From: a virus | Virus record (IMG/VR): IMGVR_UViG_3300027506_000003 | Coordinates: 1-64,000 of that record | Strand: one strand, 5' to 3' | Length of the DNA stretch: 64,000 nucleotides | Part shown: positions 30,863 through 38,397 of the stretch, one piece after another | Layout of the letters: each line of letters begins with the position of its first letter | How positions within the stretch are numbered: the stretch's first letter is position 1 | Program-made: the position numbers and the translations under genes | Notes under the pieces: model-generated | What the model saw: the letters and a program-made list of their open reading frames with translations, nothing else | Told to the model about the DNA's origin: nothing | The model's database searches: none

Positions 30863-30870
30863 TATTTATG
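30863..30870 (-). promoter_or_regulatory. Possible late promoter for gene 48 (CATAAATA)
   Basis: Minus-strand CATAAATA overlapping the gp4 start codon, predicting a leader of about 36 nt for gp48 with AGGGAT before its ATG. Together with 30831-30838 it forms a divergent late promoter pair. Confidence 0.5.
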
Positions 30871-31317
30871 GCATATTCGGGTAAGTTCAAACCAAAGAAC
30901 TACAAAAAATACAAAGGAGACCCCACAAAAATCTACTATAGGTCTTTATGGGAGCGTAGATTCATGGTTTACTGTGATGAGAACAGTAATATCTTGGAAT
31001 GGGGCAGTGAAGAAATCATAATTCCGTACATTTCACCACTAGATAAGAGACCACATAGGTACTTTCCCGACTTCTATATAAAGTATAAGAATGCAGCAGG
31101 CAAAATACTACGTGAAATCATTGAGGTCAAACCAAAGAAACAAACTAAACCCCCAAAACAACCCAAAAGGAAGACACAACGTTACTACAAGGAAGTTGCA
31201 ACCTATGTTGTCAACGAAGCAAAGTTCAAAGCTGCAGAAAGTTTCTGCAAAGATAGGAAACTGGGTTTTCGCATACTAACCGAAGACCACTTACTACCGA
31301 GGAAAGAGAAAAAGTGA
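30868..31317 (+). CDS. 4: Head completion protein gp4 (149 aa)
   Basis: Close match to T4 gp4 (gp50/65 family): FKPKNYKKYKGDPTKIYYRS, LWERRFMVYCDENSNILEWG, then HRYFPDFYIKYK and EIIEVKPKKQTKPPK. T4 has KPKNPEKYKGDPTKI and HRYFPDFYVKFK at the same places and is about 150 residues long. The EVKPK and PDFY motifs belong to a PD-(D/E)XK-like nuclease fold. The protein acts in DNA-filled head completion and joining head to tail. It is the first gene of the plus-strand block, driven by the late promoter at 30831. Confidence 0.93.
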   Translation: MAYSGKFKPKNYKKYKGDPTKIYYRSLWERRFMVYCDENSNILEWGSEEIIIPYISPLDKRPHRYFPDFYIKYKNAAGKILREIIEVKPKKQTKPPKQPKRKTQRYYKEVATYVVNEAKFKAAESFCKDRKLGFRILTEDHLLPRKEKK

Positions 31318-31895
31318 AAAAATTATATGTATTTGATTTAGATGGAGTCTTAATTGACTCAAAAAGTAACATGGAGAAGTCATTTATCTCCTTACAAACT
31401 GGAAAACCATTTGAAGACTACTTCAAGCACATCGGGAAACCCTTCAAAGACATCTTAACTGAGATGGGTATACTCACTGACCAAGATGAACTGATGGCAC
31501 AGTACAATAGAGCATCTGCAGAGAACTCCGATATGATAAAGTATTACGATGGTGTCGAATCACACTTACAACATTTAAAGGCTGAAGGTAAAAAGTTAGC
31601 GGTGGTAACTTCAAAGCATTCAGGCAGAGCTCATGTTATTTTGGATGCGTTAGATGTTGAGTTTGATGCAGTCGTTTGTCCCGATAATGATTGGAGAGGT
31701 AAACCAGCACCCGACCAATTATTGATTGCACTTGCACATTGTAATGTAGACCCAAAAGACGCAGTCTATGTGGGTGACATGCAAGTCGATATGGATTGTG
31801 CAGACAGAGCTGGTGTTGATTTTATTTACGCAGAATATGGATATGGAGATATAGAATGTTGTTGGAACAGAGCAAGTTCAATCGAGTCGGTTTAA
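31314..31895 (+). CDS. HAD-family phosphatase (193 aa)
   Basis: Haloacid dehalogenase superfamily, subfamily with an alpha-helical cap. Motif I is DLDGVLIDS (residues 8-16, Asp8 nucleophile and Asp10), motif II is VVTSK (97-101), motif III is the Lys in RGKPAPD (Lys130), and motif IV is GDMQVDMD (154-161). It resembles phosphoglycolate phosphatase/beta-phosphoglucomutase-type enzymes, not the capless KdsC. It starts with GTG overlapping the gp4 stop, and its end overlaps the cytidylyltransferase gene by 40 nt. A joint role in making or activating a sugar acid is inferred. The substrate is unknown. Confidence 0.85.
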   Translation: MKKLYVFDLDGVLIDSKSNMEKSFISLQTGKPFEDYFKHIGKPFKDILTEMGILTDQDELMAQYNRASAENSDMIKYYDGVESHLQHLKAEGKKLAVVTSKHSGRAHVILDALDVEFDAVVCPDNDWRGKPAPDQLLIALAHCNVDPKDAVYVGDMQVDMDCADRAGVDFIYAEYGYGDIECCWNRASSIESV

Positions 31896-32596
31896 TACCT
31901 GCCCGTTGGGGTTCATCTAGATTTGAGGGTAAACCCCTTGCATTAATCTGTGGTGAATCTATGATTAAGAGAACCTATGACCGTGCATCGATGTCGAAGA
32001 AACTAGACAAGGTCTACGTGGTTACGGATGATAACAGAATCGAATACCATTGTGAGATATTTAACATCCCTTGTATAAGAGTTGATGATGATTGTGCAAC
32101 TGGTACAGATAGATGTGCAATTGCATCTAAACAAATAGACGCAGATATTTATGTCAACATACAAGGTGATGAACCCTTGATTGACCCCGAAGCAATTGAT
32201 AGACTATGTGATTACTTTAACCCCACACTTGGTGTTGCAAATGCATATGTGATAATCAAAGAGCCATATAAGGTAATGGACAACGATGTAGTAAAGGTTG
32301 TGTTCGATTCACATCATTGTGCAATGTATTACTCACGTCTTGGTATACCTTTCCCACGAGGTGAGGATGCAAAGGTAAATCAACAACTTGGTTTGTATGC
32401 ATTCAGTAAAGAACGTCTACAAGAATTCTCAACATTACCTATGCAGACTTTAGAGAGAGCTGAAAGTGTTGAGATGTTAAGGTTCCTAGAACATGGGTAT
32501 AAGGTTCTAATGGTTCATGTAGATGATGATGGTCTATCAGTAGACACCCCCAAAGATATTAAACTAGTAGAAGAGAGAATTAATGGATATAACTGA
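31856..32596 (+). CDS. kdsB: CMP-KDO synthetase-like cytidylyltransferase (246 aa)
   Basis: KdsB family: IPARWGSSRFEGKPL (residues 14-28), the nucleotide-binding loop, then TGTDRC (82-87), NIQGDEPLI (101-109), YSRLGIPFPRG and QLGLYAFSKERL. The length matches bacterial KdsB (about 248). KdsB transfers CMP from CTP to KDO (3-deoxy-manno-octulosonate), the activated sugar for lipopolysaccharide core; related enzymes activate other sugar acids. The start is supported by GGAG 7 nt upstream inside the HAD gene. A phage copy in a virion gene block suggests host envelope or virion glycan modification. Confidence 0.88.
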   Translation: MLLEQSKFNRVGLIPARWGSSRFEGKPLALICGESMIKRTYDRASMSKKLDKVYVVTDDNRIEYHCEIFNIPCIRVDDDCATGTDRCAIASKQIDADIYVNIQGDEPLIDPEAIDRLCDYFNPTLGVANAYVIIKEPYKVMDNDVVKVVFDSHHCAMYYSRLGIPFPRGEDAKVNQQLGLYAFSKERLQEFSTLPMQTLERAESVEMLRFLEHGYKVLMVHVDDDGLSVDTPKDIKLVEERINGYN

Positions 32597-34693: not shown

Positions 34694-35401
34694 ATGGGAT
34701 TACCAATCCAATCAGCACCCACCTATACGTGTGTGCTACCAAGTAACGGAACTGAAGTAAAGTTTAGACCGTTTCTTGTAAAAGAACAAAAGGTATTGAT
34801 ACTTGCACGTGAGAGTGAAGACACTGTACAGTCATTAAGAGCTGTAAAGGATTTAATACATGCAGTGACTTATGAAAAGGTAAATGCAGATGAACTTGCA
34901 ATGATAGATTTAGAATATCTATTCTTAAAGGTTCGTTCTGTATCGATAGGTGAAACGATAGAACTATCGTTAACATGTAGAGACCAAGAATGTAATGGGA
35001 CTGAGAAAGTTTTAATTAACTTGGATGAGATTGAAGCAAGCGGGGAACAACCTACAACCAATACAGTCATGATAAATGATACTGTTGGTATTGAAGTAAG
35101 AACACCGTTAGTTAAAGACATCAAGTTAACTAATCAGAATCAAGCCGATGCAGATGTTGGTTTAGATGTAGTTAAAAATTCTATCACATCTATTTTTGAT
35201 GAAGAGCAAGTTTATGATAAGAGTGATATGAGTAAATCTGATTTAGATGACTTCATTGATTCTCTAACTTATAAGCAGTTGGAGTTATTAGGAGACTGGT
35301 TTGATGACCTACCTAAACTTTCTCATACTGCAGAATGGAAATGTAATGTTTGTGAAAGAGAAAACAAAAGAGTATTAGAAGGTATAAACTCTTTTTTTTA
35401 A
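34694..35401 (+). CDS. 26: Baseplate hub / tape-measure chaperone gp26 (235 aa)
   Basis: T4 baseplate gp26 family: LPSNGTEVKFRPFLVKEQKV, then VQSLRAVKDLIHAVTYEKVN, LEYLFLKVRSVSIGETIELS and a Cys-containing LTCRDQECNGTEKVLINLDE. A late CNVC...C pair (WKCNVCERENKRVLEGI) may bind metal. The gene ends in TCT TTT TTT TAA, and the TAA overlaps the ATG of the next gene. Just before the stop is a U UUU UUU slippery site that would fuse gp26 to the next 59 codons by -1 frameshift. The family acts in hub assembly and probably as a chaperone of the tape measure. Confidence 0.85.
   Translation: MGLPIQSAPTYTCVLPSNGTEVKFRPFLVKEQKVLILARESEDTVQSLRAVKDLIHAVTYEKVNADELAMIDLEYLFLKVRSVSIGETIELSLTCRDQECNGTEKVLINLDEIEASGEQPTTNTVMINDTVGIEVRTPLVKDIKLTNQNQADADVGLDVVKNSITSIFDEEQVYDKSDMSKSDLDDFIDSLTYKQLELLGDWFDDLPKLSHTAEWKCNVCERENKRVLEGINSFF
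35392..35398 (+). other. Candidate -1 programmed frameshift site (T TTT TTT)
   Basis: The gp26 frame reads TTT TTT TAA. Slipping back one base on the heptamer T TTT TTT gives TTA then ATG GCT, which is exactly the frame of the next gene. This mirrors the G/GT tail chaperone arrangement of many tailed phages. Confidence 0.65.
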
Positions 35402-35580
35402 TGGCTCTTTCTCATGAGGGATTAGTAAACTATTACAATACTAATTTCCAAATGATGCAACATCACAAATATTCATTGAGTGAGTTAGAAGACATGATGC
35501 CATGGGAAAGAGAGATTTACATTAAGCTCCTTTTGAACCACCTTGAAGAGGAGGCCGAAAGGAATAAACAAAACAGATAA
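35401..35580 (+). CDS. Small gp51-position chaperone partner (59 aa)
   Basis: A 59-residue protein (MALSHEGLVNYYNTNFQMMQ, then KYSLSELEDMMPWEREIYIK, ending in an acidic helix LEEEAERNKQNR). Small proteins of this kind follow gp26 in cyanophage-like phages, at the position of T4 gene 51. Its ATG shares a base with the gp26 stop. It could be made alone by stop-start coupling, or as a gp26 fusion by the -1 shift at 35392-35398. PWERxIY motifs occur in tail assembly chaperones. Its role in tape-measure folding is inferred. Confidence 0.75.
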   Translation: MALSHEGLVNYYNTNFQMMQHHKYSLSELEDMMPWEREIYIKLLLNHLEEEAERNKQNR

Positions 35581-35597
35581 TATTAGAGGACACACTA

Positions 35598-35978
35598 ATG
35601 AGCGAAATAGATAAATTCTCGGGGGACATGAGTCGTAACGAGGTTGAAATTGACTTGAAGAAGTTCATGGCAATGGTAACAGAGATTGGCGAACTTAAAC
35701 AAGAAATTTTTGAATTAACAAACGAAGATAGAAAGAACCCTTGGCAGAAATGGATATTTGCAGCCAAGACAATTGATGCATGGAGAATTATACCTCGTGC
35801 ATTCCTAGGTATTTACATGTACCTACTTTATTATGCAACATTTTGGTTCATGGACTTAGCAGACCCAACACTAGAACAGTCGGGATTGATTTCCGTACTA
35901 GTCGGTGCTGGAGCAGCTTGGTTTGGACTATACACTTCAAGTGCAGCGAAAGAACACGGTGACACAAACCCCAATTAG
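35598..35978 (+). CDS. Small membrane protein, holin-like (126 aa)
   Basis: An amphipathic N-terminal half (EIDLKKFMAMVTEIGELKQE) is followed by two hydrophobic segments, IIPRAFLGIYMYLLYYATFW (about residues 65-85) and GLISVLVGAGAAWFGLYTSS (about 96-116), and a short charged tail. The GAGAAWFGLYxxS motif is seen in phage holin-type three-helix proteins. It lies between the tail chaperone and tape-measure genes, an unusual place for a holin. An alternative is a membrane protein used in tail or head assembly. Confidence 0.65.
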   Translation: MSEIDKFSGDMSRNEVEIDLKKFMAMVTEIGELKQEIFELTNEDRKNPWQKWIFAAKTIDAWRIIPRAFLGIYMYLLYYATFWFMDLADPTLEQSGLISVLVGAGAAWFGLYTSSAAKEHGDTNPN

Positions 35979-35988
35979 GATATAACCA

Positions 35989-38397
35989 ATGGCAGGAAGA
36001 GACAAAGGAATTACTGAAGCAGAAAAAGACCAGCAACGCAAATTAGAAACATTAAATACCAACTTGGAGAAAGCTTCGGGTAAACTTAATGGTACTTTTG
36101 CTAATCTTGTAGCTAATGTTGCTGAAACGAATAGAGAGTATGCTCTTGAGCTTGCAGAAAAGCGTCTAGAGACTCGTGCTACATTCTCGGGATTTCTTGC
36201 AAGAAGTAAACTTGCTGCACACACTAGAGAGTTTCTGGCAGATAATGCTGACTCAGAGAAGGAAAGAGCAGAATTAAAAGCAAAACTTCTAAATGACGAG
36301 AAACTTGAAATTAATCGTAACAAATCACTAAATGCAATGAAAGACAAAGTGTTTAGTAAGCAGTTCTCTATTGATAACAATATCACTATGGGTATTGAAG
36401 ACCGTCTTAAGAAACAAACAGAGATTGACGCGATACAGCAAGAGGTTGATGCAAAGGAATCTGAAATTAAGAAGTTCCGTGCGAAACAATTTGCAAAAAT
36501 TAGTAAAGAAGAAGAACAAGCACAGGAAGATTATACAAAGATGCTTAATGAGGCTTCTAAAAGTGAGGACTTTGATAAGTTTTCGGGTTCAGTAAAGAAC
36601 CTTACAGGTGGTCTTCTAGATATCGGTGGTATGCTTGATGACGTTGTTAAGTTCGGTGAAGATTTACAAAATGTTGCCAAAGGGATTCAGAGTGCATTTG
36701 GAAAGATTTCCGAGCTCAGTAATAAACTTGGTAACTTTATTGGTGACAGTCTTAAAAGCTTTGCAAGTGAGATAGGCAATTTCTTCAAAGCTGGATATGC
36801 GAAACTTGAAGACCTACCAATAGTTGGTGGTGCTTTCACCAAATTGAAAGATATAGTCATGAGTCTCATAGGTTCTATTGGTGCTTTATGGTTAACCATG
36901 AAAACTAAGATGAAAGATTTAGTGAGTGGTATTAAAACTAAAGTTAAAGATGGTACATCTAAAGTCGGTGAGAAGTTCAAATCTGCAAAGGAAAGTATTA
37001 CTAGTAAAGTCGGAGAGAAGTTCCAACCTGTTAAAGATGTGTTCTCTGAGAAAGCAAAACTCTTTCAAGGTAAGATGTCTGACTTAGGTAACACTATGAA
37101 GAACGGTGCAAAGACTATGGGTGGTAAAGGACTCAAAGCAATTAAGATGGCACCTAAGATGTTAATGAAAGGTGCAACAAGGTTTGTATCTCTACTTGCA
37201 CGAATCCCAGCAATGTTAGCTGCAATCCCAGCATTACTTGCATCACCGTTTGTATTAATCGGTGCAGCGGTTCTACTTCTTGCAATTGGTTTAGTTCTCG
37301 TATGGATGAAGTTCAAAGACCAAATCATGGAAAAATTTGAAATGATGAAGACTAAGGTGACGGAAGTAGTTACCAACATTGTAGATGGTTTCCTAGATGT
37401 CTGGCAAAGAGTAAAGAACTGGTTCTCTGATAAGGTGTTCGGTATTAGAAGTTTCTTAGGTCTAACCTCTGAGGAAGAAGAAGCAGAACATGCTAAACAA
37501 GAGGTAATCAAAGAAAAAGAAAAAGAAAAGGAAAGACTTAAAGAAGAACAAAAAGAAATCGCCATGCAGGCAAAAGAAGCTGAAATCGATGCACAGTTAA
37601 AAGCAGAGTTTGGTGAAGACGCTCTCAACTGGGGCTGGGGTAGAGGTGACTCTGATGCAAAAGATATGAAGAAACAGATGATGGAACAAGCAGAAGCTGA
37701 CATTGACCAAGACATGGCAATGGATGATATCTCCTCTAAGGATTTACTTAAAGAAAGGAATCAATCTGAAGATGATTATGATAATGTTCAAAATGTCATA
37801 GATGCAAGACAAAAAGAAGTTGAGAATAAGGTTAAATTTAGTAACTTAAAAATCAATGGTGAGGATGCAACCGAAGAACAGAAGAGAGAGTACTTTCAAG
37901 AACAAGCAGACAAGGGACAGTTAGATGGTCGACTGGGCGGTGGACTAGAAAGATTCGAAGGAACAAAAGGAGTAACCACTCAAGAGCTTCGTGAAGAACA
38001 AGCAGCCGAAGTCTTAGATATTAATAGAGCTCAGAAAGAACTCGATACAAGAGAAGACTACATCCCAATGAACAGGGGTGACAATGCCACAATAGCGAGA
38101 AGAAATGAACTCCAAGGAATACAATCAGATGATGAGGTCTTTGGTGATGGTGAAGGTCTTACAGAAAAAGAGAAGATGGAACTGACTCGTTTAGAGAGAG
38201 ACCAAGGTGATAGGATTAAAGACTCAGCAGACCGTGCTAAAGAAATGGGGCCCAAGAGACCCGACCCTAGTATTAATACATCTGTTGCACAACAAAACAC
38301 TAATAACAATGTAACTAACAATACGATATCTGCATCACCTAATCCTAGACCCACAGATAGAACTATTAATAGAACTGCTACTGTAAATCAGAATTAG
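35989..38397 (+). CDS. Tape measure protein, gp29 position (802 aa)
   Basis: The protein is mostly helical: coiled coil for residues about 1-200 (AEKDQQRKLETLNTNLEKAS), amphipathic repeats of T/S/K-rich type (SKVGEKFKSAKESITSKVGE), a long hydrophobic block around residues 405-445 (SPFVLIGAAVLLLAIGLVLV) and a highly charged C-terminal half with K/E-rich coiled coil. This is the composition of a tape measure, which sets tail length and inserts in the host membrane. Position after gp26 and its partner matches T4 gp29 (590 residues). The C-terminus is N/T-rich (NTNNNVTNNTISASP). Its stop overlaps that of the convergent gene (TTAG). Confidence 0.75.
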   Translation: MAGRDKGITEAEKDQQRKLETLNTNLEKASGKLNGTFANLVANVAETNREYALELAEKRLETRATFSGFLARSKLAAHTREFLADNADSEKERAELKAKLLNDEKLEINRNKSLNAMKDKVFSKQFSIDNNITMGIEDRLKKQTEIDAIQQEVDAKESEIKKFRAKQFAKISKEEEQAQEDYTKMLNEASKSEDFDKFSGSVKNLTGGLLDIGGMLDDVVKFGEDLQNVAKGIQSAFGKISELSNKLGNFIGDSLKSFASEIGNFFKAGYAKLEDLPIVGGAFTKLKDIVMSLIGSIGALWLTMKTKMKDLVSGIKTKVKDGTSKVGEKFKSAKESITSKVGEKFQPVKDVFSEKAKLFQGKMSDLGNTMKNGAKTMGGKGLKAIKMAPKMLMKGATRFVSLLARIPAMLAAIPALLASPFVLIGAAVLLLAIGLVLVWMKFKDQIMEKFEMMKTKVTEVVTNIVDGFLDVWQRVKNWFSDKVFGIRSFLGLTSEEEEAEHAKQEVIKEKEKEKERLKEEQKEIAMQAKEAEIDAQLKAEFGEDALNWGWGRGDSDAKDMKKQMMEQAEADIDQDMAMDDISSKDLLKERNQSEDDYDNVQNVIDARQKEVENKVKFSNLKINGEDATEEQKREYFQEQADKGQLDGRLGGGLERFEGTKGVTTQELREEQAAEVLDINRAQKELDTREDYIPMNRGDNATIARRNELQGIQSDDEVFGDGEGLTEKEKMELTRLERDQGDRIKDSADRAKEMGPKRPDPSINTSVAQQNTNNNVTNNTISASPNPRPTDRTINRTATVNQN

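Follow-up and report, generated by a model that had tools for sequence, protein, structure and literature searches.

A conserved slippery heptamer and a probable −1 frameshift into a gp51 tail domain at the end of gp26 in T4-like phages

The gp26-like gene of the viral sequence analysed here ends in a run of T, and the −1 frame at that point leads into a small open reading frame (ORF) of 59 codons, which raises the question of whether the two frames specify separate proteins or are joined by a programmed −1 frameshift. The window, that is, the whole 64,000-nucleotide stretch that was analysed, belongs to an IMG/VR virus record that is 66,485 bases long. The zero frame at the gp26 end reads TCT TTT TTT TAA, the −1 frame reads TTA ATG GCT, and the slippery heptamer is enclosed in a run of eight T (35392–35399). 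A first-pass annotation of the window had described a gp26 end of TTT TTT TAA with a heptamer, and a −1 frame running into the next gene; both were confirmed, at 34694–35401 and 35401–35580. The features of the locus are as follows.

34694..35401, plus strand: gp26-like gene, putative short form (TAC-N-like), 235 aa; PF12322 E 2.8e-53, phrog_150 E 3.3e-57
35377..35382, plus strand: SD-like AGAAGG, candidate upstream stimulator, from sequence; GAGG-rich, more than synonymous codons predict, at the same place in the set of 160 relatives
35392..35398, plus strand: slippery heptamer T TTT TTT; T TTT TTN kept in 160/161 non-redundant sequences
35398..35580, plus strand: −1 frame continuation, 60 aa and stop, giving the predicted 295-aa gp26–gp51 long form; phrog_634, phrog_150 C-terminal end
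35401–35580, plus strand: ORF in the −1 frame, 59 aa; the −1 frame of gp26 leads into it
35416..35449, plus strand: candidate downstream hairpin, from folding; some covariation in the window clade
35598..35978, plus strand: 126-aa ORF between the tail domain and the candidate tape measure, described in the first-pass annotation as a membrane protein; phrog_10198 (function unknown), E 2.6e-19
35989..38397, plus strand: candidate tape measure protein, 802 aa; weak PHROGs tape-measure matches, best phrog_4200 E 1.5e-7

Among the 77 ORFs of at least 100 aa in a mechanical list for the window, T TTT TTN fell within the last five codons of gp26 alone. The sequence TTTTTTTTAATG occurs once in the window against 0.07 expected occurrences, and it is present in 7 of 100 shuffles as well. 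The −1 phase by itself counts for little, since a stop/start overlap of the TAATG or ATGA type always produces it, and the 59-aa ORF has its own ATG in the window, so the window alone is no proof of a shift. As far as sequence comparison can argue for a shift, the case is carried by conservation of the site in relatives that lack a start codon for the tail.

The gp26 product passed the Pfam gathering score of PF12322 (T4_baseplate) with 181.3 bits vs. 24.5 over residues 9–235. The named relatives that it matched were all less than 60% identical, and of the 626 records matched, cyanophages contributed more than any other group. The 59-residue partner stands as an ORF but is not the anonymous product of the first-pass annotation: it matched phrog_634 ('baseplate hub assembly catalyst', gp51) with an E-value of 3.4e-26 at profile positions 58–115 of 121; a second match was to the C-terminal end of phrog_150 (E 9.2e-5). 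Judged by these matches, the frameshift partner is the C-terminal domain of T4 gp51; a match to this tail domain was present in 610 phage records. The full-length T4-type gp51 architecture, encoded as one uninterrupted ORF, is absent from the window, where body and tail are split between two frames, and a gp51-like architecture would be obtainable there only from the frameshift product.

Relatives were collected from six IMG/VR scans and eight named stretches, giving 266 loci in total. With the window segment these made 267 sequences, of which 257 had a plus-strand gp26 match and 256 remained once L039, without a stop, was set aside; dereplication at 90% protein identity left 162, and removal of L175, which has a T4-type gp51, left 161, the window included. 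An initial inspection covered the window and 159 of the first 160 loci (a redundant sample; L039 is cut before the gp26 end), and every tail match in it was in the −1 phase of gp26. The results for the non-redundant set showed a zero-frame T TTT TTN near the gp26 end in 160 of the 161 sequences, which, being related, do not amount to 161 independent trials. The sole miss, L151, reads G TTT TTT and was omitted from the statistics on 160 sequences. The −1 frame remained open for at least 159 nt beyond gp26 in 161/161, the +1 frame closing at a median of 15 nt, and in 161/161 the −1 tail matched that of the window (blastp E ≤ 1e-3, in a search confined to that small set). When 45 tails were withheld from a profile, all 45 matched it, the weakest with E 2.5e-8. 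Comparing relatives for the T run and the −1 phase was the check suggested in the first-pass annotation for its programmed −1 frameshift in a G/GT-like layout, and the conservation found strongly supports that proposal. Among 15 named phages, which overlap with the 161-sequence set because L161–L168 were part of the input, the open −1 tail was present in all 15 and the heptamer in 14. The exception, Vibrio phage K444 (L271 2040–2255), has an open −1 tail, no T6 run and tandem ATG codons at the overlap, and frameshifting has possibly been lost in this phage.

Codon usage at the site differed from that in the remainder of the same genes. The first Phe codon of the site was TTT in 160/160 sequences vs. 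1153/1643 Phe codons elsewhere, and the codon before it ended in T in 160/160. The last base of the heptamer was C in 89, T in 53 and A in 18 sequences (n = 160). The accompanying log10 probabilities assume independence and were not used as evidence.

The T4 group served as a natural negative control. In T4, 26 and 51 are two separate, divergent genes whose products both match PF12322; T4 gp51 in addition spans phrog_634 and almost the whole of phrog_150 (13–280 of 282). As T4 gp51 covers a gp26-like body together with the tail domain, it can be regarded as the in-frame long form, with T4 gp26 as the short form. The profiles of gp26 and T4-like gp51 align with 97.5% probability. The two T4 genes thus belong to the same protein family as gp26 of the window, but they are divergent, carry no heptamer and need no frameshift. 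Nine of the ten T4-group loci were readable (in L171 the sequence breaks off within gene 26), and the heptamer was found in gene 26 in 0/9, which represent fewer than nine independent cases because L169, L170 and L172 are 98–100% identical to T4 gp26. Phe-Phe was present in 6/9, always as TTC TTT, as in T4 itself, showing that Phe-Phe alone does not force the T run. At one T4-group locus (L177 2501–2860) the gp51 reading frame ends at 120 residues although the match runs on, which would fit a sequencing error or a broken gene. Frameshifting is reportedly kept in several T4-like groups, T4 using 26 and 51.

Upstream of the site, the mean anti-SD pairing of the preceding 24 nt was −6.45 kcal/mol vs. 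−5.10 kcal/mol for synonymous versions (n = 160), and none of 40 synonymous sets was as strong; five control positions differed from their own synonymous versions by at most 0.33 kcal/mol. The Glu codon at −4 was GAG in 68/95 cases vs. 944/3602 elsewhere. Downstream, the 16 codons after the slip folded across the set at −7.49 vs. −3.61 for synonymous versions, and z fell below −2 in 46% of the set vs. 4–12% at five control places with synonymous controls. Dinucleotide shuffles gave a concordant result, 51% at the site vs. 2–17% at seven other places (the place with 17% partly overlaps the site).

A single conserved RNA structure was sought and was not found; hairpins vary by lineage. An 11-bp stem five nt past the heptamer was common to 14 relatives, with a double-sided change at one pair in two sequences, and its 96.8% pairing is not independent evidence because the 14 were chosen for pairing (at least 9 of 11 pairs). 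The downstream fold of the window itself was weak (z −0.63 vs. synonymous codons). In the window clade (30 sequences at least 42% identical to the window; 29 aligned, L046 omitted), RNAalifold gave no consensus structure, and a weaker stem lies about 17 nt past the heptamer. Double-sided changes in this stem occupied 21 cells vs. 10.9 in shuffled alignments (0/500 shuffles), in a test that favours the stem because the structure came from folds of members; two of five measures were not above shuffles (both-sided pairs, 195/500; further types, 79/500). A control slid by −3 gave a covariation of 0.183 vs. 0.167 for the stem, with far fewer paired cells. These data support the putative stimulators at the level of the family; in the window sequence they are candidates.

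If no programmed shift took place, the 59-aa protein would be made by TAATG coupling and the T run would represent Phe-Phe in an AT-rich genome. The window does contain TAATG, whose overlap gives the −1 phase automatically; an ATG, GTG or TTG is within reach of the tail in 57/160 sequences, and several named phages carry ATG at the overlap. However, these start codons are absent for 103 of the 160 tails (searched in the −1 frame between its upstream stop and the fifth codon after the slip, ATA, ATT and the like not being counted). Simple stop/start coupling was rejected on this ground, and the TAATG-coupled small protein proposed in the first-pass annotation is not a conserved feature. TTC accounts for 490/1643 Phe codons elsewhere in the same genes yet never serves as the first site codon, and the Phe-Phe pairs of the T4 group are TTC TTT in 6/6. 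In addition, the SD-like AGAAGG of the window lies 18 nt before the ATG and 9 nt before the heptamer. We consider it extremely unlikely that coupling without a shift accounts for this locus.

The long form could also arise by RNA polymerase slippage on the T8 run and not by ribosomal slippage, and eight T are indeed present in the window and in 40/160 sequences. Yet 107/160 have just six T, which is short for polymerase slippage, while the zero-frame T TTT TTN register is kept in 160/160, and ribosomes would be the target of the SD-like element and the downstream structure. Because of the T6 runs, polymerase slippage was rejected as a general mechanism, and as the source of the long form it is very improbable. 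Compatible with ribosomal frameshifting is the production in the window of both the fusion and a free 59-aa protein that starts at the overlapping ATG, which is intact and in frame. This is unlikely, since the ATG looks incidental (the commonest post-slip head is LIALSH, in 23/160, vs. LMALSH in 2/160) and no SD at initiation spacing was seen in the window sequence.

We infer, with a probability of roughly 0.93, that the locus encodes a tail assembly chaperone with gp26 as its short form and a gp26–51 long form produced by a −1 slip. Most ribosomes would stop at the TAA past Phe-Phe and yield the short form; a minority would move back one base on U UUU UUU and translate 60 further codons to give the 295-aa long form, whose tail would be the domain found at the T4 gp51 C-terminus. 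The slip would probably be stimulated by the SD-like element lying some 10 nt ahead of the site and, for many lineages, by a downstream hairpin as well. The lambda G/GT pair suggests a role for the two forms, in which they would load the tape measure protein and bring in subunits of the tail.

The recoding geometry of dnaX has three parts. The chances seem to us about even that the T4-like chaperone shift uses a three-part dnaX-like site, comprising an SD-like element, a fixed U UUU UUN and a lineage-specific hairpin repeatedly rebuilt elsewhere, and that the T4 group escaped via gene duplication, 51 being frozen as the long form and the heptamer erased from 26.

The predicted structure of gp26 (mean pLDDT 88.1; alignment with 85 of 157 references) was compared with known folds. 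Residues 1–85 of the model matched the HK97 tail assembly chaperone 2ob9 (Z 7.6, rmsd 3.9, 83 residues aligned), which, with Z under 8, may reflect a common arrangement. The other leading match was 3fgx, an uncharacterised protein (Z 7.7), and the next rows were at 2.9. Foldseek against the PDB gave nothing significant for the gp26 model (E 0.7), nor did Foldseek for a T4-like gp51 model, which carries, at low confidence, three extra C-terminal helices. Searches of the PDB by sequence gave no relatives for the gp26 profile and three chance-level rows for the tail profile.

The surroundings of the locus differ from lambda G/GT in that one ORF lies between the tail and the candidate tape measure gene; the slippery sequence of lambda G/GT also differs from that of the window. 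Close to the tail genes, at 31314–32596, a HAD-type phosphatase (PF13419, E 2.4e-32) overlaps a cytidylyltransferase (PF02348, E 3.2e-42), and the two resemble enzymes of sugar-nucleotide metabolism of the KdsC/KdsB kind. A 149-aa ORF at 30868–31317 matches a TnsA-like endonuclease N-terminal domain (PF08722, E 1.3e-22).

Atkins 2016 places the −1 shift of lambda G/GT near the 3′ end of the gene, has both products binding the tape measure protein, and describes the G-T shift as conserved widely 'except T4'; lambda likewise has a short form and a frameshift-extended long form. The first-pass annotation knew of no description of such a shift for T4-like gp26, but shifts of this kind are in print: poly-T is a known −1 signal in T4-like short-form genes (Vladimirov, Gautam & Davidson 2022, as cited in PMC12846349), and the slippery sequence of the window is likewise poly-T; PRFect (PMC10885494), also citing Vladimirov 2022, mentions some T4-like phages with short and fused long chaperone genes instead of frameshifting. 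In a different phage family, PMC12846349 describes the TAC gene of Pseudomonas phage Adele (Vandenendeviridae), for which −1 PRF is likewise proposed, with a conserved GTTTTT and a misannotated tail ORF. Experimental proof of the slip was not found in the accessible portions of the literature examined. The window appears to be a clear new case of this already reported T4-like chaperone frameshift.

The open −1 tail has no annotated gene in Aeh1 (L165 3217–3400), Acidovorax phage ACP17 (L168 3262–3420) and S-WAM1 (L162 2501–2695), and in Aeh1, where it occupies the −1 frame, the overlap offers it no usual start. Among other records examined, the tail domain is annotated with a late start in Mosig and Melnitz and elsewhere as a separate 'gp51'. 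In Sullivan 2010, cyanophage gp51 is about 20% of normal length and Aeh1 is seemingly without gp51; the frameshift would give a reason for both. T4 gp26 and gp51 appear in a 2010 review as hub assembly chaperones, gp51 being 'of unknown function', and the frameshift offers a concrete, testable reading of T4 gp26 and gp51 as short form and long form.
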